NCBI GenBank assembly: GCA_016875405.1
Contig: VGRJ01000047.1
Coordinates: 1 to 32,362 of the forward strand
Direction of reading: 5' to 3'
DNA: 32,362 nt
Origin: Deltaproteobacteria bacterium
GTDB lineage: Bacteria; Myxococcota_A; Polyangia; Polyangiales; Polyangiaceae
Shown here: piece after piece, positions 10,330 to 32,362 of the stretch
Layout of the letters: each line of letters opens with the position of its first letter
Numbering within the stretch: position 1 is the stretch's first letter
Notes under the pieces: model-generated
What the model saw: only the letters and a program-made list of their open reading frames with translations
What the model was told of the DNA's origin: nothing
Databases searched by the model: none
Program-made: the position numbers and the translations under genes

Positions 10330-11670
10330 ATGGGCGGCGTGGGGGACACCGAAGACGCGCTCGTGCCGGGGCACGTCCTCGCCGGCACTTCGTACCGGCT
10401 CGTCGAGCGCATCGGTCGTGGCGCCCACGCCCTCGTGTGGCGCGGCGAGCACACGAAGCTCTCGACGCGCGTCGTGGTGAAGCTCCTCGACGCGCGCGCG
10501 ACGGGGGAGTCGGCCGATCGCATGCGGCTCGAGGCGCAGGCCCTCGCGCGACTGTCGCACCCGAACCTCGTCACGGTGGTGGACGCGGGCTTCGCCGAGG
10601 GGCGCCTCTACTACGTGATGGAGGATGTCGGCGGCCTGCCCCTCGCGGAGGCGCTCGGGGCGAGCGGGCGCATGACCCCAGAGGCCGCGATCGCGCTGAG
10701 CCTCGAGGTCCTCGAGGGCCTCGGCTACCTCCACGCGCAAGGCCTCGTGCACCGCGATCTCCACCCCGAAAACGTGCTCGTCGTGACGGGCGAGGACGGC
10801 ACTCGCAGCGTGCGAATCCTCGACCTCGGCCTCCTGAAGCTCGCGGGCGGACACGAGCAGCTCGGCCTCACCCCTCTCGCCGTCGCCACGGCCGAAGGCG
10901 TGGCCATCGGGACGCCTCGCTACATGGCCCCCGAGCAGGCGCGCGGGGCCGCCATCGATGCGCGCGCGGATCTCTACGCCGCAGGAGCGCTCCTCTATCG
11001 CCTGCTCACCGGTCGCGATCCGTTCGCCCACCACGCGAGCGTGGGACAGGTGCTCGCCGCGTTGCCCCGAGAGGAGCCTCCGCCGCCGCGGACGTTCGCG
11101 CCGGAGCTCGATCCGGCCATCGAGCGCGAGGTGCTCCGCGCGCTCGCCAAACGGCCCGAAGCGCGGCACGCGACCGCCGACGAGCTGGCCGAGGCGCTGC
11201 GTCGCGCCGTGGCGGCAAGCCTGCTCGGCGCCGAAGAGACGGCCAACGCACGGGCGAGCTGGACGAGCACGGTCACGCTGTCCGACCCGGAGCAAGACAG
11301 CAGGCGCGTGACGACGAGCTCGCAGGCGACGCGTGTGACGACCGAGCCGTTCAGCCCCCGAGTCGCTTCGGCGCGCGTCACGGTCGAGCGCACGCGCCCG
11401 ACCGTCACACCCGAGGCGAAGCCGTCGCCTCGCGCGACCGACGCGCCGACCGAGCGCGCGACCGAGCCGCAGGCACCGAGGCTTGACGGCGCGCCTTCGC
11501 CACCTGCTGCATCGCCCCGCGCTCTGCGCGGCGTCCACGTGTTCGTCGGCTCATGGCTCGGGGTCACCCTCCTTACGGTGCTCGCCCTCCTGGCGACACG
11601 CAGCTGCTCGAGGGCCGATGCGACCTCACGAGGAGGGGCGCCAGATGGCGAGCGTATTTCGACCCGGTGA
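10330..11670 (+). CDS. Hanks-type serine/threonine protein kinase, membrane anchored
   Basis: The 446-residue protein has a cytoplasmic kinase domain at about 22-295 and a single membrane segment near 405-425. The P-loop is GRGAHALVW (29-37), the ATP lysine is probably Lys51 (VVVKLL), and the helix-C glutamate is Glu68. The catalytic loop is HRDLHPEN (141-148), with His in place of the usual Lys, and the metal-binding motif is DLG (165-167) instead of DFG. GTPRYMAPEQ is the activation-segment end. The essential Asp residues are present, so activity is plausible but may be altered. The stretch between kinase and membrane is Thr/Arg/Pro rich with many possible phosphosites. Its last 26 bases overlap the next kinase gene, which suggests coupled expression. 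The extracytoplasmic part is only about 20 residues, too short for a sensor domain. Confidence 0.9.
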   Translation: MGGVGDTEDALVPGHVLAGTSYRLVERIGRGAHALVWRGEHTKLSTRVVVKLLDARATGESADRMRLEAQALARLSHPNLVTVVDAGFAEGRLYYVMEDVGGLPLAEALGASGRMTPEAAIALSLEVLEGLGYLHAQGLVHRDLHPENVLVVTGEDGTRSVRILDLGLLKLAGGHEQLGLTPLAVATAEGVAIGTPRYMAPEQARGAAIDARADLYAAGALLYRLLTGRDPFAHHASVGQVLAALPREEPPPPRTFAPELDPAIEREVLRALAKRPEARHATADELAEALRRAVAASLLGAEETANARASWTSTVTLSDPEQDSRRVTTSSQATRVTTEPFSPRVASARVTVERTRPTVTPEAKPSPRATDAPTERATEPQAPRLDGAPSPPAASPRALRGVHVFVGSWLGVTLLTVLALLATRSCSRADATSRGGAPDGERISTR

Positions 11671-13090
11671 CCAATGCGGCGGCTACGAGATCGTGCGGCA
11701 GCTCGGCGAGGGCGGCATGGGCGAGGTCCACCTCGCGCGCAGCTCGACCGGCGAGGCCCGCGCGCTGAAGGTCCTCTCGCCGGCGGCGCAGGCGAAGCGG
11801 GAGCTGGCCAAGCGCTTCATCGGTGAGATCCAGGTCCTCAGCTACCTGGCGCACGCGCACGTCGTGCGCTTCTACGAGGCGGGGGTCGAGGAGCGGCCTG
11901 AGGGCTCGGTCGTGTGGCTCGCGCTCGAGTTCCTCGAGGGCAAGACCTTGCGAGAGCGGCTCGAGGAGCGTGGGCCTCTCGACGAGGACTCGCTGATTCG
12001 CTGGGGTCGGCAGATCGCACAGGGCGTGCACGAGGCGCACAAGCTCCACGTCGTGCACCGCGATCTCAAGCCGGAGAACGTCGTCATCGTCGGCGGAGAC
12101 ACGGCCAAGGTGATCGACTTCGGGATCGCAAAATTCCGCGACTGGGAGGGCACGCGGGCGCGCACGAGCGGGGCGCGCATCGGGACCTTGCTCTACATGG
12201 CGCCCGAGCAGCTCGACGACGCGCTCGGCATCCCGATCGACGCGCGGACCGATGTGTACGCGCTCGGCGTGGTCCTCTACGAGCTCGCGACGGGTCGGAA
12301 CCCGTACCTCGACGCGAAGGAGACGGTCGACATGTCGTCGCTGCTCTTCCGAAAACTGACGACCGTGCTGCCGCCCGTTCGCTCCCTCGCCCCGGCGCTC
12401 GGCGAGGACGTCGCGGGGGTGATCGACCGGGCATGCCAGCACGAGGCGAGGCTGCGCCATGCGTCGATGGCTGAGCTCGACGACGCGCTTGGGGCCGCGT
12501 GGCGTCGACGCATGGACGAGCGGCGCGCCCGGATGCTCGGCGAGCGAGACTCGGACGGCGGCCCGCCCCTCGCAGCGCGCGCGGCAGGAGGGGCGGACGC
12601 ATCGATGGCCCCCCCCGCGCCGGACGGGCAGTCCTCGCGCTTCGAGAGCGTGCGGACCTTGCCTGGCGCCGCGAGCCCGTCCGCAGCGACGCGCTCGCTC
12701 CGCGACCTCGCGCTCGTCGGTGCGGCGCTCGGCCTCGCGACCGGGCTCGTGGCCTACCGGGCGTTCGTCGAACCGCGCCTCGCCGTCGCCGAGCGGCGCG
12801 GGGCTCGCGAGTCCGAGGTGACCGACGTCGACGGCCCACCCCCGAAGACGACGCGCTCGAGCGCGGCCGCTCTGCCCGAGCGCGCGCCGTCTTCCGCCGC
12901 GAGCGCGGCCAACGTCGCCTCGGCCTCGCCGTCAGCGACCCCGGGCAACGACGCGAAGCCCCCGAGCGCCCGCGTCGCGGTCGAGCGCCCCGTGCGACCA
13001 AACGGCGCGAGCCCTTCGGCGACGCCGACCACCGGCCCGGCGCCGGCGCGTCCGGCTTCGGTGTTGATCCACGGAGGCGGCGAAGAGTGA
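11645..13090 (+). CDS. Hanks-type serine/threonine protein kinase, membrane anchored
   Basis: I chose ATG 11645 because it is preceded by a strong GAGGAGG ribosome site at a suitable distance and gives a start just before the kinase fold; the open frame itself extends further upstream inside the previous gene. The product has 481 residues. Kinase motifs are intact: GEGGMGEV (21-28), Lys42, Glu61, HRDLKPEN (138-145), DFG (158-160) and YMAPEQ (184-189). After a linker, one membrane span at about 360-380 (LALVGAALGLATGLVAYRAF) leads to a Pro/Ser/Ala-rich periplasmic tail of about 100 residues with no recognisable sensor domain. The gene overlaps the upstream kinase by 26 bases and is followed after 75 bases by an Ala/Ser-rich membrane protein gene. 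The substrate is unknown. Confidence 0.92.
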   Translation: MASVFRPGDQCGGYEIVRQLGEGGMGEVHLARSSTGEARALKVLSPAAQAKRELAKRFIGEIQVLSYLAHAHVVRFYEAGVEERPEGSVVWLALEFLEGKTLRERLEERGPLDEDSLIRWGRQIAQGVHEAHKLHVVHRDLKPENVVIVGGDTAKVIDFGIAKFRDWEGTRARTSGARIGTLLYMAPEQLDDALGIPIDARTDVYALGVVLYELATGRNPYLDAKETVDMSSLLFRKLTTVLPPVRSLAPALGEDVAGVIDRACQHEARLRHASMAELDDALGAAWRRRMDERRARMLGERDSDGGPPLAARAAGGADASMAPPAPDGQSSRFESVRTLPGAASPSAATRSLRDLALVGAALGLATGLVAYRAFVEPRLAVAERRGARESEVTDVDGPPPKTTRSSAAALPERAPSSAASAANVASASPSATPGNDAKPPSARVAVERPVRPNGASPSATPTTGPAPARPASVLIHGGGEE

Positions 13091-13165
13091 CGATCCGATG
13101 GCGGGGGTAGAGGCGCGCCGCGAAATGCGGTTGAATGCCGAAGGGATGTGGGTGGAACGAAGCCG

Positions 13166-13963
13166 ATGACCGATCAGCCGAAGCACGCCGCCACCAAGCG
13201 CTCAGCCCTCGATGACGCCGGCAGCGCTCGCAAGGAGCACGCCGTCGCGAAGCCCGTGAAGTCGCACCAATCGACCGCGGACGAGCCGAAGGTGCAGATC
13301 GCCGCGAAGGCGCGCGATCAACGGCGACAAGAGCCCACGGTTCGGATCCAGCGCGACGCGGCCGGAAATCTCGTCGTCTTCAACCCGCTCGACCCGACCC
13401 CCAAGACCATCGCGCTCCCGACCGCCGCCGCGCAGACGCCCTCGACGCCTCCGATGGCCGCAGCGACGCTGGCTCCGATCCACGAGGCGCCGGCTCGCTC
13501 CCGAGGGGTGACGCTAGGGCTCGCGGGCCTCGGGGTGCTCGCCCTCGCCGGCGCGGCGCTCGCGTTCAAGGTGACCTCGCAAGGCCAACCAAGCCCCGCG
13601 GCCACCACGACGAGCGCGCCCTCCACGACCGCAGCAGCGGCGGCCACGACCTCCGCCGCCGGCACCGCCGAAGAAGCCTCCGCCCCCAGCAACTCCGCCT
13701 CCCCAGCACTGGAAGCGGTCTCGTCCGCGTCCGCCGCATCCCCCTCTTCGACGCTGTCGGCGCCGACGCCCGTGGCCGCCGCGCCGATGCCCGCCGCGAC
13801 CCCGGGACAGCCCAAGCTCCCGAAGGCCGGAGGCTCGTCGAAGGCGAGCGCGACGCCTGCTAGCCCAGCGGCGGCCCCGGCGGTCTCAGCGGCCCCCGAG
13901 ACGCCCGGCACGAATCCGTTCGCGATCCCGGCCGCCGCTCCACGCGTGAAGACCGGCTACTGA
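13166..13963 (+). CDS. Single-pass membrane protein with Ala/Ser/Thr/Pro-rich tail
   Basis: ATG 13166 is preferred over GTG 13148 because GGTGGA lies nine bases upstream of it. The product has 265 residues. Residues 1-110 are hydrophilic and Lys/Ala/Gln rich; the phrase VRIQRDAAGNLVVFNPLDP is the only ordered-looking piece. One membrane segment (about 116-134, VTLGLAGLGVLALAGAALAF) is followed by about 130 residues of low-complexity Ala/Ser/Thr/Pro sequence ending VKTGY. There is no enzymatic motif. It sits between two kinase genes on the same strand, only 12 bases before the third kinase. Its architecture copies the non-kinase half of its neighbours, so it may be a kinase partner or substrate, or a cell-wall-spanning tether. 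That role is inference from context. Confidence 0.7.
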   Translation: MTDQPKHAATKRSALDDAGSARKEHAVAKPVKSHQSTADEPKVQIAAKARDQRRQEPTVRIQRDAAGNLVVFNPLDPTPKTIALPTAAAQTPSTPPMAAATLAPIHEAPARSRGVTLGLAGLGVLALAGAALAFKVTSQGQPSPAATTTSAPSTTAAAAATTSAAGTAEEASAPSNSASPALEAVSSASAASPSSTLSAPTPVAAAPMPAATPGQPKLPKAGGSSKASATPASPAAAPAVSAAPETPGTNPFAIPAAAPRVKTGY

Positions 13964-13975
13964 GCCTCGGGGACG

Positions 13976-15408
13976 ATGAGCTCCTCGAGGCAGCGACTGA
14001 AGGACGGCGACGTCTTCGCGGCTCGCTATCGGATCGACGGGCTCGTGGGCAAAGGCGGGTTCGGCGCGGTCTATCGCGCCACCGATCTCGCTCACGGCGC
14101 GGTCGTCGCGCTGAAGGTGCTCGTCGCGAACTACGGCTCGAGCGAGAACGACTCGAAGCGCTTCAAGCGCGAGGCCGCGCTCGTCAAGGCCCTCGACCAC
14201 CCGAACATCGTTCGGGTCGTCGACTTCGGGCAGTCCGATCGCGGCGTGCTCTACATCGCGTTCGAGCTCCTGTACGGAAAATCGCTGGGTCAGCGACTCG
14301 CGGAGGAGGGTCCGCTCGAGCCTGGCGCCGCGGCGCGCCTCGGGATCGACGTGCTGCGCGCGCTCGAGGCGGCGCACGCGCGAGGGATCATCCACCGCGA
14401 CATCAAGCCCCACAACGTCTTCCTCCTCGACGAGGCGCCCTGGACGAAGGTGCTCGACTTCGGCGTGGCCAAGGCGATCACCGGGCTCGAGAGCAACGCG
14501 ACGCACCTCACCGAGATGGGACAGATGGTTGGGACGCCGCAGTACATGGCCCCCGAGCAAGTGCGCGGCAGCGGCATCTTCCCGTCGAGCGATCTCTACT
14601 CGCTCGGCCTCGTGCTCGCCGAGGCGCTCACCGGCGTGCGCGTGGTGCGCGACGAGGCGCCGATTCAAGTGTACCTCGCCCACGTCTCGGCCGAGCCGCT
14701 GCCGATCGCTCGGAGCGTCCTCGAAGAGCCGCTCGGCGCGGTGGTGCTGCGCGCGACCGCGAAGGAGCTGAACGCCCGCTACGCCTCCGCGAGCGCGATG
14801 CTCGTCGACCTCGAGACGATCGCGGCCTCGCTGCCCGAGCGTCCCACCGCCGAGCATCGCACCCGCCCGATGCAGGCCCTCCCCGACCTCGTCGGTCAGC
14901 GCTCCACCCAACCGCTGAAGGCCTTCGGCGACTTGACCGATCGCAATCGTGGCCTCGCGGCGCCGCTGCGGGCCAGCGGCACCATGGTGATGGAGGAGTT
15001 CGACGACGGACCGAGGGGCGAAGCGCCGCCGAGCGCTGGCGTCGCCGCGATGTTGCAGCTCTCGGGCGGAGCGCCCGCGTTGCCGACCCCCATGAGCCAG
15101 GGCAGCCTCACCGCGCTGTCCTCGAGCCGCCCGCTGTCCGGGCCGATGCCGACGAGCCAGGGGGGCTGCTGCACACCGCCGGAGCCCAGTTCGTCCCAGG
15201 GGGCATTGGGGTCCCGGCACCGACGAGCGAGCCGCTGCCCGACCCGCGGCTCCCGCCGGCGCCGAGCCTGGTCGCCGCGCCGCCGAGCTCGGAAGCGAGC
15301 GCAGCCTCGCCCGCGACGGTGCGCAGCCTCCGCGTTGCGGTCGCGGTGGTCTTCGCGCTGGTCGTCGTCTTCGGCGGGCTCAGGCTCCGGCTCGTGCTTC
15401 GCGGCTAA
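13976..15408 (+). CDS. Serine/threonine protein kinase with a -1 frameshift before its membrane anchor
   Basis: From ATG 13976 the kinase domain is complete: GKGGFGAV (25-32), Lys47, Glu66, HRDIKPHN (140-147), DFG (161-163) and YMAPEQ. At codon 396 the frame meets a run of six G (15160-15165). The zero frame beyond it becomes Arg/Ser-rich nonsense that runs antisense through the NUDIX gene. The -1 frame instead reads normal codons (LLHTAGAQFVPGG and on), a membrane segment (VAVAVVFALVVVFGGL) and a stop at 15406-15408, just before the NUDIX gene. The combined protein would be about 477 residues, matching its neighbours. The cause may be a lost G in the genome or the assembly, or programmed slippage on G GGG GGC. 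Confidence 0.85.
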
Positions 15409-15423
15409 CCCGAGGCCGGCCGC

Positions 15424-15993
15424 TCAGCGCGCGGCGAGCCGTCGCACCGCGCGCATCACCGACTCGTCGCTCGGGAGGTCCCCGGTCTTCGCGTCGAGGG
15501 CTTGGTGTGCCGCCCGCACGGGCACCCAGCGCGCCGCCCGCGCGTCGTCACCCGCGACGACCTCGCGCGAGGCCGCGCGGAACAGAAATCGCACGTCGAA
15601 GTGCCGATGCTCCGGCGCACGCGCCGAAGCGGGGATGGTGTGGACGTCGACGTCGAAGAGCCCGTCACCGAGGAGCACGACCTCATCGAGGCCGACCTCC
15701 TCACGAAGCTCGCGCCGCGCGGCCGCGACGACGTCGGCATCGCCTGGCTCGACGTGTCCGCCGGGCTGGAGCCAGCGACCGAGCTTGCCGTGAAGGATGA
15801 GCAGGAGCTCCCGCTCGTCGGGCGACACGACGAAGGCGCTCGCGGTGAAGTGACCGGGAGCGTAATGCGCGCGCTCGAAAGCCGGCTCGCCGGTCTCGAG
15901 GAGCGCCCTCAGCTCGTCGCGAAAGCCCGCCTCGCGCTCGTCGCCGGGCGCGTAAGCATCGAGGAGCGCGCGGAGGTGTCGGGTGCGGGACAT
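15424..15993 (-). CDS. NUDIX hydrolase
   Basis: The 189-residue protein carries a Nudix box at residues 79-102: GHVEPGD followed by RRELREEVGL, matching GX5EX7REUXEEXGU except that the first Glu is Asp. The REUxEE metal-binding core is intact, so it should hydrolyse a nucleoside diphosphate linked to another moiety. An N-terminal extension of about 45 residues with GHFTASAFVV leads into the fold. The length is larger than the small MutT type, and the substrate cannot be told from sequence. It is convergent with the frameshifted kinase (15-base gap) and divergent from the RDD gene (142-base gap). ATG start at 15993. Confidence 0.92.
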   Translation of the reverse strand: MSRTRHLRALLDAYAPGDEREAGFRDELRALLETGEPAFERAHYAPGHFTASAFVVSPDERELLLILHGKLGRWLQPGGHVEPGDADVVAAARRELREEVGLDEVVLLGDGLFDVDVHTIPASARAPEHRHFDVRFLFRAASREVVAGDDARAARWVPVRAAHQALDAKTGDLPSDESVMRAVRRLAAR

Positions 15994-21664: not shown

Positions 21665-23503
21665 TCAGCCCGCGGTCTCGCGCGCGACGAGCGCGTAGGC
21701 GAGCCTTCGTGACCAGTGGCAGCCACGGCGCCGAAGCGCAGGGACGCGCCGCCACCCGTCGAGGCCAAGCCCCGCGTCGTCGAGCAGGGGCGCGACCGGA
21801 ACGTGAAACCCGCTCTTCGGTCGGCGCACCAGCTCATCCGGCACGCGCCGCGAGGGCGCTTCGGCGACGAGCCGCTTGCCCTCGTGGAGCGGTCCTGCGA
21901 CGAGTAGCCCAGGCGCGAGTCGCTCGGTCAAGGTCGCGTCGACGAACGGGACGCGCACCTCGAGGCCGTGCGCCATGCTGGCCCAGTCCGAATCGCGGAG
22001 GAGCTGGTTTCGCATGTAGAGGCTGGCCTCGAGGGCCGCGACGCGCGCGAAGTCGTCGTCGGGCTCCGGCTCGAGCGCCCGGCCGATGAGCTCGAGAGGC
22101 GCGAGCGCCTCGAGGCCCGCGCGAGCTGCGTCCTCGCCCATCAGGGCGGGGAGCTCCGTCGGCATGAAGAGGCCTCGGCGCAGGAGGTACGCTCCGGGCC
22201 AGCTCGCGCCGTAGCGGAGCACGCTCCCGAGCTTTGGTGACACCGGCAGCGCAGCGAGCCCGAAGCGTCGATAGGCCGCCTCGACGGCGCGCCCGAGCCC
22301 TGGCCATACCGAGGCGGGACGGAGCGCCCTCACCCAGCGTGGCAAGGTACGAAACGAGGCGTAGCCGCCAAAGAGCTCATCGGCGCCAAGCCCGCTCACC
22401 GCGACCTTGAGGCCGGCCTCACGAGCGGCGCGGCTGACGAGGTAGGTGTTCAAGGCGTCGATGGTGGGCTGGTCCATGGCGGCGAGGAAGCCGTCGCACG
22501 CCCGAGCCAGCTCGCGCGCGCTCAGGCGCACCGTGACGTGCGTCGTTTCATACCGACGTGCCATCGCCTCGGCGAGCGGGGACTCTTCTCCTGGGGTGCC
22601 GCGAAGATCGTCGAAGGCGAGCGTGATCGTGCGGATTTCCTCGGCTCCCGCGTCGCGCATCAGCGCGACGAGCGCGGTCGAGTCCACGCCCGCGGAGAGG
22701 AATGCCCCGACCGGGACGTCGGCGACGAGGTGGTGACGGACGCTGTCGGCGAGCGCGTCGGCGACGAGCCGCCCGTACACAGAGACGCGAGGTCCCGCGG
22801 CGGCGCGCGAGAGCACCTCGGAGAGCGACCAGTGGCGACGCACCGGCCCGGGGCCGCGCTCGTCGAACCACTGGAACGAACCCGCCTCGAGCGCGCGGAT
22901 GGCGCGATACCGAGTGTGCGGCTCTGGGACGCTGCCGAAGAGGTAGAAGCCCGCGAGCCCCGCCGCGCTCTCTTCACGGCTGACCCGACCCGCGAGGAGC
23001 GCCTTCACCTCGGACGCGAAGCGCAGCGTGGCGCCATCGTCCGCGAGGTAGAGCGGCTTGATCCCGTAAGGGTCGCGCGCGACGAGCAACCCTCGCCGGG
23101 CGCCGTCCCAGAGCGCGAAGGCGTACATCCCGCGGAGCCGCGCGAACATACCCTCGCCCTCGGCGCGGTAGAGCTCGAGGAGCACCTCGGTATCCGAGCA
23201 CGAGCGGAAGCGGTGACCGCGCGCCTCGAGCTCGAGGCGGAGCTCACGGTGGTTGTAGATCTCGCCGTTGAAGACGAGCGCGAGGTCGGCCTCGGGCCGG
23301 ACCATCGGCTGCGCGCCGCCTTCACTCAGATCGATGATCGAGAGGCGCCGATGCCCGAGCGCGACGCGACCCGTCGGGTCGAGGTAGGCGCCCGAGGCGT
23401 CAGGACCACGCGAGGCCAGGCGATCCCGGATCGCGCCGAGCTCGTCCATCGACGGGCCTTGCGCCGCTGCCGCGTAGGCGACGATCCCCGCGATCCCGCA
23501 CAC
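21665..23503 (-). CDS. asnB: Asparagine synthase (glutamine-hydrolysing) family amidotransferase
   Basis: I set the start at GTG 23503 because it gives MCGIAGIVAY, in which Cys2 becomes the N-terminal nucleophile of the class II glutaminase. The upstream part of the open frame is antisense-like Ser/Arg sequence inside gmd. The 612-residue protein has glutaminase motifs SRGPD (31-35), NGEIYN (79-84) and RDPYGIKPLY. The synthetase domain has the pyrophosphate-binding loop as SAGVDS (270-275; canonical SGGxDS) and SGLGADELFGGY. Members of this family in polysaccharide loci amidate sugar acids or act in asparagine synthesis; the substrate is not known here. Only 7 bases separate it from gmd upstream, so it is the last gene of the PilZ-wzy-gmd-asnB unit. 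It could also be a plain asparagine synthetase. Confidence 0.92.
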   Translation of the reverse strand: MCGIAGIVAYAAAAQGPSMDELGAIRDRLASRGPDASGAYLDPTGRVALGHRRLSIIDLSEGGAQPMVRPEADLALVFNGEIYNHRELRLELEARGHRFRSCSDTEVLLELYRAEGEGMFARLRGMYAFALWDGARRGLLVARDPYGIKPLYLADDGATLRFASEVKALLAGRVSREESAAGLAGFYLFGSVPEPHTRYRAIRALEAGSFQWFDERGPGPVRRHWSLSEVLSRAAAGPRVSVYGRLVADALADSVRHHLVADVPVGAFLSAGVDSTALVALMRDAGAEEIRTITLAFDDLRGTPGEESPLAEAMARRYETTHVTVRLSARELARACDGFLAAMDQPTIDALNTYLVSRAAREAGLKVAVSGLGADELFGGYASFRTLPRWVRALRPASVWPGLGRAVEAAYRRFGLAALPVSPKLGSVLRYGASWPGAYLLRRGLFMPTELPALMGEDAARAGLEALAPLELIGRALEPEPDDDFARVAALEASLYMRNQLLRDSDWASMAHGLEVRVPFVDATLTERLAPGLLVAGPLHEGKRLVAEAPSRRVPDELVRRPKSGFHVPVAPLLDDAGLGLDGWRRVPALRRRGCHWSRRLAYALVARETAG

Positions 23504-28161: not shown

Positions 28162-29409
28162 GTGCACGTCCTCGCGCTGAATCAGTTCTACGCGCCCGAC
28201 CACTCGGCGACGTCACAGCTCCTGACGGAGCTCTGCGAGGACCTCGCCGCGGCCGGAGAGCGCGTCACGGTGGTCGCGAGCCGCGGGACCTACCTGGGCG
28301 GGGAGAAGCTCCCCGCGCGCGAGCGGCGGCGGGGCGTCGAGGTGCTGCGCCCGTGGGCCACCAGCCTCGGCAAAGGGAGCATCGCGCGGCGGCTCCTCGA
28401 CTACGGGACCTTCGGCGCGTCGGCGCTCGCCGAGGTCGTGCGCGTCGCACGACCGGACGTGATGATCGCGCTCACCACGCCGCCGATGATCGCGGCGGGC
28501 GCGGCGGTCGTCGCGAAGGCACGCGGGATCCCGCTGGTCCCGTGGGTGCAGGACGTGTACCCGGAGGTCGCGGTTGCCTTCGGCGTCCTCCAGGAGACCA
28601 CGATGGCGGCGCGCGCCCTCGCCGCCGTGGGCCGCGCGAGCCATCGAGCCGCACGCCTGACGGTGACGCTCTCCGAGGGCATGGCGGAGCGGGTCGTGGC
28701 GCAGGGTCAAGCGCGCGAGCGGATACGCGTCATCCCGAACTGGTCGGACGGTCGCCTCGTTCACCCCACGGCGGAGGGCGCCGCGCGCTTCCGCCGCGAG
28801 CACGACCTCGAAGGGCGCTTCGTCGCGATGTACAGCGGCAACCTCGGCGCCGGCCACGAGCTCGTCCCGTTTGTCGCGGCCGCGCGCGCCCTCGCGGCCC
28901 GAAGGCCCGAGCTCGCCCTGGTGTTCGTGGGCGATGGCGTTCGACGAGCCGAGGCCGAACAGGCCGCGCGTGGGCTGACGAACGTGCGCTTCTTGCCCTA
29001 TCAGCCGCGTGAGCGGCTCGCCGAGAGCCTGTCGGCCGCCGACGTGCACCTCGCCTCGCTCCAGCCCGGGCTCGACGGGCTGCTCGTGCCGAGCAAGCTC
29101 TACGGGGTGATGGCTGCCGGGCGCCCACTCCTCTACCTCGGCCCGGCATCGTGCGAGCTCGCGCGGGTGATTCGGCGCTGGGGCGTGGGCTGGCACGTCG
29201 AGCCGGGGGAACCAGCCGCCCTCGTCGCGGCGCTCGAGGCGGCCATGGCCGAGCCGCTCGAGACCCGGGGGCGCGGCGAGCGCGCTCGCGCGACGTTCGT
29301 CACCGAGTTTGATCGCCCCCGAGCGGTCGAGCGGTGGCGCGCGGTGCTCCGTGAGGCGGTGGCGGAGGGGCCCCACGCGATCGGTGGACGAGCACCGAAG
29401 GGAGAGTAG
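28162..29409 (+). CDS. Glycosyltransferase family 4 (WcaI-like)
   Basis: The 415-residue protein starts at GTG 28162 (GAGAGAG seven bases upstream). It begins MHVLALNQFYAPDHSATSQL, the usual opening of WcaI-type GT4 enzymes. PWVQDVYPEVA (about 128-138) and a GT-B C-terminal half follow: VIPNWSD, MYSGNLGAGH, LVFVGDG, and GLDGLLVPSKLYGVMAAGRPLL. These features mark the donor-binding site of retaining GT4 enzymes that transfer a sugar from a nucleotide donor to a lipid-linked acceptor at the cytoplasmic face. Donor and acceptor are not predictable. It is the first gene of the plus-strand unit, followed after 90 bases by the polyprenyl-phosphate sugar transferase gene. It could act early in repeat-unit assembly. 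Confidence 0.9.
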   Translation: MHVLALNQFYAPDHSATSQLLTELCEDLAAAGERVTVVASRGTYLGGEKLPARERRRGVEVLRPWATSLGKGSIARRLLDYGTFGASALAEVVRVARPDVMIALTTPPMIAAGAAVVAKARGIPLVPWVQDVYPEVAVAFGVLQETTMAARALAAVGRASHRAARLTVTLSEGMAERVVAQGQARERIRVIPNWSDGRLVHPTAEGAARFRREHDLEGRFVAMYSGNLGAGHELVPFVAAARALAARRPELALVFVGDGVRRAEAEQAARGLTNVRFLPYQPRERLAESLSAADVHLASLQPGLDGLLVPSKLYGVMAAGRPLLYLGPASCELARVIRRWGVGWHVEPGEPAALVAALEAAMAEPLETRGRGERARATFVTEFDRPRAVERWRAVLREAVAEGPHAIGGRAPKGE

Positions 29410-29499: not shown

Positions 29500-31047
29500 A
29501 TGCGCACGTACCTCGCCGCGTTCTTCCTCGCCGCGCTCGCGTCCGGCCTCCTCACGCCGCTGGTGAGGCAGTGGGCGCTTCGCCTTCAGGCGGTGTCGGC
29601 AACGGGTGGTCGCCACATGCACGCGCGGAAGATCCCGCGGCTCGGCGGGGTCGGAATCGGGATCGCGATGTTCCTGCCGATCCTGTCCTTGTTCGTCGTC
29701 GACGGCGTGGTCGCGCAGCACATCCGCGAGAACTCGCTGCGCGTCGTCGGGCTGTGTGGCGGTGGCGCGCTCATCGCGAGCGTGGGGGCGCTCGACGATA
29801 CGCGGGGCGTACGCGCCCTCCACAAGCTGTACGCGCAGATCGCGGTCGCCTGCCTCGCCTGGCACTGCGGGTTCCGCATCGACGAGGTGATGCTGCCCGT
29901 GGTCGGGCTGCTGCCGATGGGCGTGTTCAGCCTGCCCATCACCGTGCTTTGGATCGTGGGGATCACCAACGCGGTGAATTTGATCGATGGGCTCGACGGG
30001 CTCGCGGCCGGCGTTGTGTTCTTCGCGGGCGTCACGAATTTTGTCGTCGCGCACAGCCTCGGCCGCAACTTCACGGCGCTCGTGATGGCGGCGATGCTCG
30101 GGGCGGTCCTCGGCTTTTTGTTTTACAACTTCAACCCGGCGCGCATCTTCATGGGCGACTCGGGGAGCTACCTCCTCGGCTACGTCCTCGCGACGACGGC
30201 GCTCGTCGGACCGACCGGCAAGGCCACGACCGCCGTCTCGCTCCTCGTGCCGGTGGTCGCCATGGGCGTCCCGATCTTCGACACGCTGTTCGCGATGGTG
30301 CGCCGCGCGCTCGAGCGTCGCCCGCTGTTCTCGCCTGACCGCGGCCACATCCACCATCGGCTGATCGATCTCGGGCTCACGCACCGACGCGCCGTGCTCA
30401 TGCTCTACGGGGTGTCCGTCGTGCTGACGGTGGCCTCGATCGCCATCTATCTCGGACGCGCGTGGCAAATCGGCGTCGCGCTGCTCGCGGCGACGGTCGT
30501 GATGCTCGGACTCGTCCGCTTCGTCGGCTACTTCTCGCTCGCCATGTTCGTCAAGCGGCAACGCGCACGCCTCCGAAGCCGTGATGCCGAGCTCCTGCGC
30601 CATGCGCTCCCTCGAGCGCTCGCGCGCTTCGCTGAGGCCTCGTCCGAGGCGACGTTGCTCGATGGGCTCATCGAGGTGGCGGAGGAGGCCGAGATCGCGG
30701 TGATCGAGGTGAGAGCGCTCGGCGGCCAAGAGGTCGGCTTCCGATGGGCGACGCGCAACTCCGACGCGCGGCGCGTCGTGGCGACGATGACCTACCCGCT
30801 CGGCAAGGACTCGCTCGCGGAGCACGAGGTGGAGTTCGCGGTGGTCACCGAGTTCGAGGACGCCGAGATGCCGCCGCAGACCGAGATCTTGCTGCAGCTC
30901 CTCGTCGACGTGCTCGTCGAGCACTTCGCGCGCGTTGGCAGCCGCTTCGCACCTCGAGTGGCCGTGGCGCCCACGTCGCGTCGCAGCGCGCCGAACACGG
31001 CCTCTGTCTCGAGTCGCCCCGCGGTCGAGACCGGCGTCGAACCATGA
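29500..31047 (+). CDS. Polyprenyl-phosphate sugar-1-phosphate transferase (WecA/MraY family) with C-terminal extension
   Basis: The 515-residue integral membrane protein starts at ATG 29500. Family motifs are in order: ARKIPRLGG (42-50), DD at 99-100 (ALDDTRG), NLIDGLDG (160-167), MGDSGS (218-223) and DRGHIHHRL (280-288, the HxHH motif of WecA-type enzymes). It transfers a sugar-1-phosphate, typically GlcNAc-1-P, from a UDP-sugar to undecaprenyl phosphate, starting lipid-linked glycan synthesis. About ten membrane helices end near residue 350. A cytoplasmic extension of about 160 residues follows, with alternating strands and helices (LLDGLIEVAEEAEIAVIEV, then LLQLLVDVLVEHFARV) resembling a GAF- or PAS-like fold, ending in a disordered tail. 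The extension is not found in E. coli WecA. Its stop overlaps the next start (ATGA). Confidence 0.92.
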   Translation: MRTYLAAFFLAALASGLLTPLVRQWALRLQAVSATGGRHMHARKIPRLGGVGIGIAMFLPILSLFVVDGVVAQHIRENSLRVVGLCGGGALIASVGALDDTRGVRALHKLYAQIAVACLAWHCGFRIDEVMLPVVGLLPMGVFSLPITVLWIVGITNAVNLIDGLDGLAAGVVFFAGVTNFVVAHSLGRNFTALVMAAMLGAVLGFLFYNFNPARIFMGDSGSYLLGYVLATTALVGPTGKATTAVSLLVPVVAMGVPIFDTLFAMVRRALERRPLFSPDRGHIHHRLIDLGLTHRRAVLMLYGVSVVLTVASIAIYLGRAWQIGVALLAATVVMLGLVRFVGYFSLAMFVKRQRARLRSRDAELLRHALPRALARFAEASSEATLLDGLIEVAEEAEIAVIEVRALGGQEVGFRWATRNSDARRVVATMTYPLGKDSLAEHEVEFAVVTEFEDAEMPPQTEILLQLLVDVLVEHFARVGSRFAPRVAVAPTSRRSAPNTASVSSRPAVETGVEP

Positions 31048-31907
31048 CCCGAGACGACCGGGCGGAGGTCCACGCCGCGAAGGCGGCTTACCTCCTGCGA
31101 CGGCGTGCGCTCGACCTCATCGGAGCGGCGCTCTCGTCCGTCGAGGTCGTCGGGCTGCTCGTCAAGGGCGCGGGGCTCGCCGAAACCGTGTACGCGGAGC
31201 CGTGGTCGCGCGCGATGAGCGACGTCGACCTCGTCGTGCCCGCGGAGGTTCAGCGCGTTTGCCTCGACGCCTTCGAGGCGCTCGGTCACGAGGTCGTCCC
31301 GATCCCCGACAATCGTCGGCGTTCCTACGAGGCACACGGCGAGCGGATGGTGCGCGTCGCGGTGGGCCCCGCACGCGTCGCCGTCGAGCTCCACGCGACC
31401 CTCGACAAGCTCGTCCTGCACCCCATCGATTGGCCGGGGATCCTCGCGCGCTCAAGCGCGATCTCCGGGCTCTCCGAGTCGCTGCGCGTCCCGTGCGTCG
31501 AAGACCACGCGCTCCTCGTGATGCTGCACGCGGCGCTGAGCGAGCTGCGCCACGAGCGCGCGTGGGACGACCTCGAGCGCCTCGTCGAGCGCGGCCTCGA
31601 CCGAAATCTCCTCGTCGAGCGCGGGCGCGCCTGGGGCCTCGCGCCAACGATGGCGCTCGTCCTCGACGCGCTCGAGGCGCGACGACCCACGTCCGCCGCG
31701 GCGGCGCTCCGTCGCGAGCTCCGCGGCGCGCTCCCGGAGCGGCCCCTCGCGCGACGCCTCTTCGAGCGCGCGGCCGTCGCGCGCCACAAGGGAACGGGCC
31801 TCACCTGGGTCGTTCGCCAGGCGATGCTCCGCGACGACCCGCTCCGCTACGCGCTCGGAGTGCTGCGCTTTGCCGGGCTCCGCGTCGCCGACAAGCTCCC
31901 GTGGTAG
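31044..31907 (+). CDS. Nucleotidyltransferase-fold protein (NTP_transf_5 type)
   Basis: ATG 31044 overlaps the stop of the sugar transferase gene (ATGA), giving 287 residues. The N-terminal half has the pattern of uncharacterised NTP_transf_5 proteins: LLVKGAGLAETVY (38-50), then R at 56 and SDVDLVV (59-65) with the paired aspartates that bind metal, and VAVELHATLD further on as the third strand. The C-terminal half is helical (LLVMLHAALSELRHERAWDDLERLVE). These proteins occur in polysaccharide, exosortase/HPr-rel-A and lasso-peptide loci, often beside a PqqD-like gene, as here, but their reaction is not established. The helix-bundle half resembles that in kanamycin-type nucleotidyltransferases. 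The substrate cannot be named. Confidence 0.82.
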   Translation: MTRDDRAEVHAAKAAYLLRRRALDLIGAALSSVEVVGLLVKGAGLAETVYAEPWSRAMSDVDLVVPAEVQRVCLDAFEALGHEVVPIPDNRRRSYEAHGERMVRVAVGPARVAVELHATLDKLVLHPIDWPGILARSSAISGLSESLRVPCVEDHALLVMLHAALSELRHERAWDDLERLVERGLDRNLLVERGRAWGLAPTMALVLDALEARRPTSAAAALRRELRGALPERPLARRLFERAAVARHKGTGLTWVVRQAMLRDDPLRYALGVLRFAGLRVADKLPW

Positions 31908-31917
31908 AGGCGCACGC

Positions 31918-32202
31918 ATGAGGGACGCCGGCAGCCAAGTCTTCACGCCTTCACCCAAGGTGCTCGCGCGCGTGCTCGACGGTGAGGCCGTGCTGCTCGA
32001 TCTTGGGGGCGGCACCTACTTCGGGCTGAACGAGGTTGGCTCCACGATCTGGTCGGCGGTCGAAGGCGGCGCGACGCTCGACGAGCTCGTGGCGACGGTG
32101 GCGTCGACCTACGACGTGTCGCCCGAGCTCGCGCGGCACGACATCGCCACCCTCATCGACGAGCTGCGGTCGCGGGGGCTCGTCCTCGCGACGCTTCGCT
32201 GA
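31918..32202 (+). CDS. PqqD-like protein (RiPP recognition element fold)
   Basis: ATG 31918 with AGAGG about eight bases upstream gives 94 residues. The whole length fits the PqqD family: an N-terminal beta segment (SPKVLARVLDGEAVLLDL), GGTYFGLNEVGSTIWSAV (32-49, the family hallmark), then a winged helix-turn-helix (TLDELVATVASTYDV) and the terminal helix DIATLIDELRSRGLV. PqqD domains bind leader peptides of ribosomally made peptides; members in glycan loci (HPr-rel-A type) have no proven ligand. It follows the nucleotidyltransferase gene by ten bases and is surely in the same transcript. No precursor peptide gene is visible in the window. Its 3-prime 50 bases overlap the convergent gene at the right edge. 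Confidence 0.88.
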   Translation: MRDAGSQVFTPSPKVLARVLDGEAVLLDLGGGTYFGLNEVGSTIWSAVEGGATLDELVATVASTYDVSPELARHDIATLIDELRSRGLVLATLR

Positions 32203-32362
32203 GCGCGCGCGCGGCGACGGACTCGGCGCTCTCGAGCCCCGGGGCGTACGAGAGCGCCACGAGCGGCACCCGCGCGGCGAGCGCCGTGAGGAGCGCGAAC
32301 TCGGCCGCGAGCGCCTCCGGCTCTTCGGGGTCGAGTCGATGCACGTGCGGCTGCAGGGCCTC
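32153..32362 (-). CDS. C-terminal part of a probable glycan-modifying enzyme (runs off right edge)
   Basis: The minus-strand frame is open from the window edge to a stop at 32153, giving about 69 residues (EALQPHVHRLDPEEPEAL at the left of the fragment). The segment FALLTALAARVPLVALSYAP resembles the end of CsaB-type polysaccharide pyruvyltransferases, where an HALI...AALxxVPxVxLSYDPK motif stands near the C-terminus, but the His and the DPK are not conserved, so this is a weak assignment. A GT9 or other GT-B glycosyltransferase tail is also possible. Codon use is normal for this genome. It overlaps the end of the PqqD-like gene by 50 bases in opposite orientation. Confidence 0.5.
   Translation of the reverse strand, partial: EALQPHVHRLDPEEPEALAAEFALLTALAARVPLVALSYAPGLESAESVAARALSEASRGRAPATAARR

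Follow-up and report, generated by a model that had tools for sequence, protein, structure and literature searches.

Genes at the end of the contig

The window, the whole stretch of DNA analysed here (positions 1-32362), is the entire contig C47, and its right-hand end carries an exopolysaccharide operon in which a glycosyltransferase gene and a wecA-like gene are followed by two further genes, designated N and B1 (Table 1). N and B1 thereby lie apart from the lasso genes described below and are convergent with the kinase gene K. The stop codon of wecA and the start codon of N share the bases ATGA, and B1 begins ten bases after the end of N; the sequence-only reading of this DNA had reported both junctions, its coordinates hold, and Pfam confirms the families of both proteins. 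The contig stops 160 bases past the end of B1 (32202), inside a convergent gene, and on the minus strand these final 160 bases encode the C-terminal end of an HprK-like kinase whose gene runs off the contig. Elsewhere in the window, three Ser/Thr protein kinase genes lie close together at 10330-15793.

Table 1. Features of the locus, of contig C10 and of precursors from related genomes. Positions without a locus prefix refer to the window.
Feature	Position	Strand	Basis or context
Ordinary AsnB of the glycan locus, Met-Cys-Gly N-terminus	21665..23503	-	TIGR01536 385.9 bits (cut-off 267.1)
WcaI-like glycosyltransferase	28162..29409	+	upstream of wecA, exopolysaccharide locus; context
WecA/MraY-like polyprenyl-phosphate sugar-1-phosphate transferase, C-terminal extension	29500..31047	+	PF00953 135.9 bits
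N, NTP_transf_5 (PF14907), PsmN-like lasso tailoring enzyme (predicted)	31044..31907	+	PF14907, NTase motifs, fold, B1 neighbour
B1, stand-alone PqqD-like RRE, predicted leader-peptide binder	31918..32202	+	PF05402, NCBIfam, alignment
K, C-terminal fragment of HprK-related kinase	32153..32362	-	cut by contig end; tail-to-tail overlap with 3' end of B1
D, ABC exporter	L107:9607-11427		C10, adjoining the 5' part of the kinase gene
B2, transglutaminase-like Cys/His protease	L107:11369-11779		C10; lasso_biosyn_B2, PF13471
C, lasso-type AsnB cyclase	L107:11776-13641		C10; best model lasso cyclase
A1 and A2, tandem lasso precursors	L107:13771-13953 and 13950-14138		C10; lasso_leader_L3
Precursors with Pro or Ala at the core end	L063:3698-3979, L064:8515-8682, L065:8642-8812, L066:14644-14955		kinase retained

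The 287-residue open reading frame of N, which starts at 31044, matches PF14907 with 64 bits (cut-off 31.2) and contains the nucleotidyltransferase (NTase) motifs VKGAGLA and SDVDLVV. Comparison of its AlphaFold model (pLDDT 85.2) in VIA-align gave polymerase-beta-type NTases as neighbours, among them MenT1, ANT(2'')-Ia and TM1012, at Z 12-14; these matches speak to the modelled fold and not to function. FKRP, a sugar-phosphate transferase of the NTase fold, matched the model at Z 8, too weakly to build on. A PDB sequence search with N yielded no significant match, and a Foldseek search with the model yielded none under 1e-3. The genome contains exactly one NTP_transf_5 protein and exactly one PqqD protein. 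Scanning the contigs of further genomes with N as the sole query found nothing, and scanning with an alignment of N found four MAGs, three of Polyangiaceae and one of Myxococcales.

The 94-residue B1 protein matches PF05402 with 74.1 bits (cut-off 23.4), its top NCBIfam models are those of lasso PqqD proteins and its nearest PDB entries are lasso B1 proteins, with an ungapped alignment to TbiB1 and PbaB1 and a further alignment to TfuB1. Leader-contact positions, taken from the complexes described in PMC13381572 and mapped by hand from the printed alignment, correspond in B1 to Y34, F35, L37, V40, I44, V61, Y65, V67, L79, L83 and L88, all of which are hydrophobic or aromatic. In addition, D75 occupies the place of LppB D70, which according to the same paper bonds the leader Tyr. 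Loss of the peptide-groove residues was named in the sequence-only reading as a finding that would speak against it; judged from the alignment, these residues are kept.

Lasso peptide genes on a second contig

When the kinase of a same-genus genome was used as a query against the genome under study, two partial matches were obtained, one of query residues 248-301 to the end of C47 (46% identity, E 1.7e-7) and one of query residues 1-144 to the end of contig C10 (E 7.2e-25), which has 76588 bases and in which the match stops at 76587. In the related genome G004, a single unbroken contig carries the gene orders of C47 and C10 joined, gene by gene, and continues past the exporter to Fe-S cluster genes. 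As the kinase is split over both contig ends and the order is contiguous in G004, the junction between C10 and C47 is well supported. About 100 codons of the kinase gene are missing between the two contigs. The His and the Lys of the GESGAGK motif are on the C10 fragment; the Asp-Asp pair is seen in genomes G001-G004 and in the present genome falls within the assembly gap, so that an intact K is presumed here from its relatives.

The genes on C10 that adjoin the kinase are those of a cluster for lasso peptides, which are knotted and resemble antibiotics. The protease B2 scores 58.0 bits against lasso_biosyn_B2 (NF033537, cut-off 33) and 60.5 against PF13471, and its catalytic Cys and His align. 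For C, the best model is the lasso cyclase (NF033535) at 183.8 bits, which is below the strict cut-off of 525; the protein has no Cys2 of the glutamine-hydrolysing AsnB type, and its SGGLDSS loop is intact. The precursors A1 and A2 reach 26.7 and 24.1 bits against lasso_leader_L3 (NF033521, cut-off 19) and have leaders of the YxxPxL type, YERPQLTVLGSVRELT and YERPQLAVLGTVRELT. Their genes overlap by TTGA, and the leader motifs are near-identical while the cores differ. The predicted cores, AAVGSNNDGNLGQQRS and AARGSLADGGLGLQRSS, follow a Thr at -2 and have Ala1, Asp8 and a C-terminal Ser, with a predicted split into ring and tail of AAVGSNND-GNLGQQRS and AARGSLAD-GGLGLQRSS.

A precursor motif composed of a YxxPxL..G..T-x leader, a small first core residue and Asp or Glu at positions 7-9 was searched in 1.07 Mb of fetched DNA and gave 13 matches, 12 of them at most 470 bp from a C gene, and 1 match in 3.2 Mb of shuffled DNA as a control. 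In G051, a second precursor of lasso type (L084:270-434) lies nearly 6 kb away from the gene for the cyclase.

The sequence-only reading had associated N and B1 with lasso-type RiPP loci, and the lasso precursors, B2 and C on C10 bear this out. Its remark that precursor and protease are absent is correct for the window and is an artefact of the contig end, both being on C10: the genes for precursor, protease, cyclase and exporter seem to be missing from C47 merely through the assembly break inside the kinase gene. Looking further to the right, as it had proposed, led to the HprK-related kinase (C-terminus at the end of C47, N-terminus on C10), to the transglutaminase-like protease, which is B2, and to short peptide ORFs, which are A1 and A2. 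The asparagine synthase homologue that it had noted in the divergent half of the locus is present, but it is not a member of the lasso system; as a candidate lasso cyclase it was rejected, given that Cys2 is present, that it scores above the cut-off for ordinary AsnB and that a separate C lies on C10.

Conservation in Polyangiales

Among 97 genomes of the same order, Polyangiales, PF14907 occurs in 83 and PF05402 in 85, and the two are at most 10 kb apart in at least 38 of the 97 by hand count, all four same-genus genomes included. Conservation of the pair in Polyangia, which the sequence-only reading had suggested checking, is therefore found in this order, and the pairing of N with B1 is not due to chance. 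In G001-G004, N adjoins B1, and the pair is followed, as far as the contigs reach, by a convergent HprK-related kinase, a short peptide and an AsnB-like protein; a transglutaminase-like protein is found in G001 and G003 and an ABC exporter in G001, G003 and G004, the contig of G002 ending inside the AsnB-like gene.

Across the fetched Polyangiales loci, the kinase usually accompanies N and B1. Lasso clusters make up a minority of these loci: about ten genomes combine a C gene with a lasso precursor, and many of the others have a radical SAM protein in place of the cyclase. The module of kinase, RRE and N, often together with B2, occurs with a radical SAM protein at L069, L071, L079, L086, L092, L096, L098, L101, L102 and others, and several of these radical SAM loci encode precursors of 58-60 amino acids with a leader of the RKPYEAPRLxKKRSVxRATL type. 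Such loci may represent a radical SAM RiPP family of Polyangiales.

Predicted pathway and comparison with known lasso clusters

Taken with its predicted pathway, the reading that the genes at 31044-32202 are the N and B1 of a kinase-and-nucleotidyltransferase-type lasso cluster split by an assembly gap is very probably correct. Which genes are present, their catalytic motifs and how the genes are ordered in the relative can be read directly from the sequences. By analogy with characterised relatives, B1 would bind the YxxPxL leader of A1 and A2, B2 would cleave the leader after the T-x pair, C would link Ala1 to the side chain of Asp8, forming an 8-residue ring, and K would phosphorylate the peptide, in this species most likely at the C-terminal Ser. 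N may then add a sugar or a nucleotide-derived group to the phosphate, a step less well supported than the others, and D, going by its family, would export the product. Functional precedents for K and N are PadeK, PsmK and PsmN (PMC9266682; PMC8498205). In pseudomycoidin, the phosphorylated Ser receives hexoses through PsmN, an activity reported in vivo only (PMC9266682; PMC8498205), and whether it is itself a glycosyltransferase or acts as a nucleotidyltransferase ahead of another transferase is not settled (PMC9266682).

The pseudomycoidin cluster (psm) of Bacillus pseudomycoides (PMC9266682, PMC8498205) has the same combination of an HprK-type kinase (PsmK) and a nucleotidyltransferase-type N (PsmN), and the precursors described here likewise have a C-terminal Ser. 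The present cluster differs from it in phylum, in its two convergent transcription units with N and B1 in an operon of a glycosyltransferase and wecA, in its two tandem precursors overlapping by four bases, and in a YxxP leader, WxxP being usual in paeninodin-like precursors of Bacillota. Paeninodin (pade, PadeK/ThcoK) shares the split of B1 and B2, the C-terminal Ser of the precursors and an HprK-like kinase with His, Lys, Asp and Asp, the Asp pair being seen here in the relatives only; in contrast to paeninodin, an 8-residue ring is predicted here, and four of the five same-genus genomes keep the kinase without a C-terminal Ser. In Bacilli, clusters for linear polyphosphorylated peptides (LPP) and lasso clusters within capsular-polysaccharide loci also combine an RRE, an HprK-like kinase, an NTP transferase and an exporter; PMC13381572 describes the LPP clusters, unlike the present one, as lacking the cyclase and as having a signal peptidase of archaeal type and a different leader. 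The locus on plasmid pSMS3-2 of Antarctobacter heliothermus (L158) likewise contains N, an ABC protein, an AsnB-like C, an HprK-like protein, PqqD and B2, but it forms one co-directional run with no wecA among its annotated neighbours.

Our literature search returned no characterised kinase-and-nucleotidyltransferase lasso example from the host phylum. The suggestion in the sequence-only reading of a poorly described system is not upheld, as the cluster type is known and the missing genes are on C10; what is unusual is the operon tie to a sugar-phosphate transferase.

Link between the lasso cluster and the glycan operon

The 4-bp overlap of wecA and N is found in G000, G001, G002 and G004, four of the five same-genus genomes, and in G003 the two genes are 101 bp apart. 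G002 has had its N exchanged for one from a remote branch of the N tree (L064:6095-6946), and this gene still occupies the position after wecA and overlaps it by the same four bases. In G048, from a sister genus, WecA and N are fused in one frame of 651 amino acids that matches both PF00953 and PF14907 (L068:8782-10737), the C-terminal extension of WecA being lost and B1 overlapping the fusion by four bases; this fusion is known from one metagenome assembly. The available part of PMC13381572 mentions no such fusion for the Bacilli loci. N is also near WecA in G045 and G023, and no lasso genes were seen at those two loci. In the WecA tree, the linked genes of the genus under study, of G048 and of G044 fall in one clade (support 91/82), so that the link is largely one ancestral event, and on these trees its phylogenetic independence is only partly supported.

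As an addition to the split-cluster reading, WecA and N could pass a sugar or sugar phosphate to the phosphorylated lasso peptide held by B1, giving a phospho-glycan lasso conjugate, and we regard this as possible though rather unlikely. The overlap kept in most of the genus, its retention by the replaced N of G002 and the two-domain fusion of G048 all favour such a hand-over, as do the addition of hexoses to phospho-Ser by PsmN (PMC9266682) and the position of Bacilli lasso clusters inside capsular-polysaccharide loci, as given in PMC13381572. The tight linkage, however, comes mostly from one clade, the majority of N genes in Polyangiales lack an adjacent WecA gene, WecA orthologues without N occur in G017, G058 and others, and common transcription does not amount to a common reaction, with the fusion coming from a single metagenome assembly. 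The more specific proposal that N and WecA form one unit, moving a sugar or sugar-phosphate, possibly from the polyprenyl carrier, onto the kinase-phosphorylated lasso peptide, we consider decidedly unlikely. The earlier idea of peptide delivery by an RRE to the machinery of glycan synthesis may survive as a hypothesis in a narrower form, because N and B1 share an operon with a WecA-like transferase, N is fused to such a transferase in one genus and a published N adds hexose to a phosphorylated lasso peptide.

It is very improbable that the pair serves the glycan operon alone, in a cell-envelope role, with the lasso genes as chance neighbours. N and B1 do share strand and operon with the glycosyltransferase and wecA, and A, B2, C and K are convergent to them; but the genome offers no other PqqD or NTP_transf_5 protein to the lasso genes, split lasso clusters require a B1, the grouping of K, B1 and N also persists at loci that lack WecA, and in the PDB B1 is nearest to lasso B1 proteins. 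An HPr-rel-A/exosortase-associated or LPP-type system in place of a lasso cluster is scarcely credible, even though an HprK-like kinase, PqqD and NTP_transf_5 occur in those systems too, since a same-genus kinase reaches 32.7 bits where TIGR04352 requires 200 and B1 reaches 27.5 where TIGR04353 requires 35, the cluster has lasso leaders, B2 and a cyclase of lasso type, and the LPP leader YxxPxVLxHQxIxFETxxS is absent from A1 and A2.

Kinases without a C-terminal serine and implications

A C-terminal Ser of the precursor has been called extremely conserved alongside HprK-like kinases of this kind (PMC9266682). The kinases of G001-G004 conserve His, Lys and Asp-Asp, and the cores in these genomes end in Pro or Ala, against Ser in A1 and A2, so that a C-terminal Ser is not a trait of the whole genus. 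Position 5 of the ring is Ser or Thr in every precursor of the genus and of G048, and is a candidate phosphorylation site.

The case illustrates how RiPP clusters can be hidden by contig ends in metagenome assemblies. Retention of the kinase without a C-terminal Ser raises the question of where the phosphate goes. PsmN-type enzymes may be glycosyltransferases, or nucleotidyltransferases that precede another transferase, and here an overlap, a replacement in place and one fusion tie N to a WecA-like sugar-phosphate transferase. If N and WecA did act as one unit, a phosphate would link the lasso peptide to a building block of a polysaccharide, and the site of attachment might differ from the C-terminal Ser.
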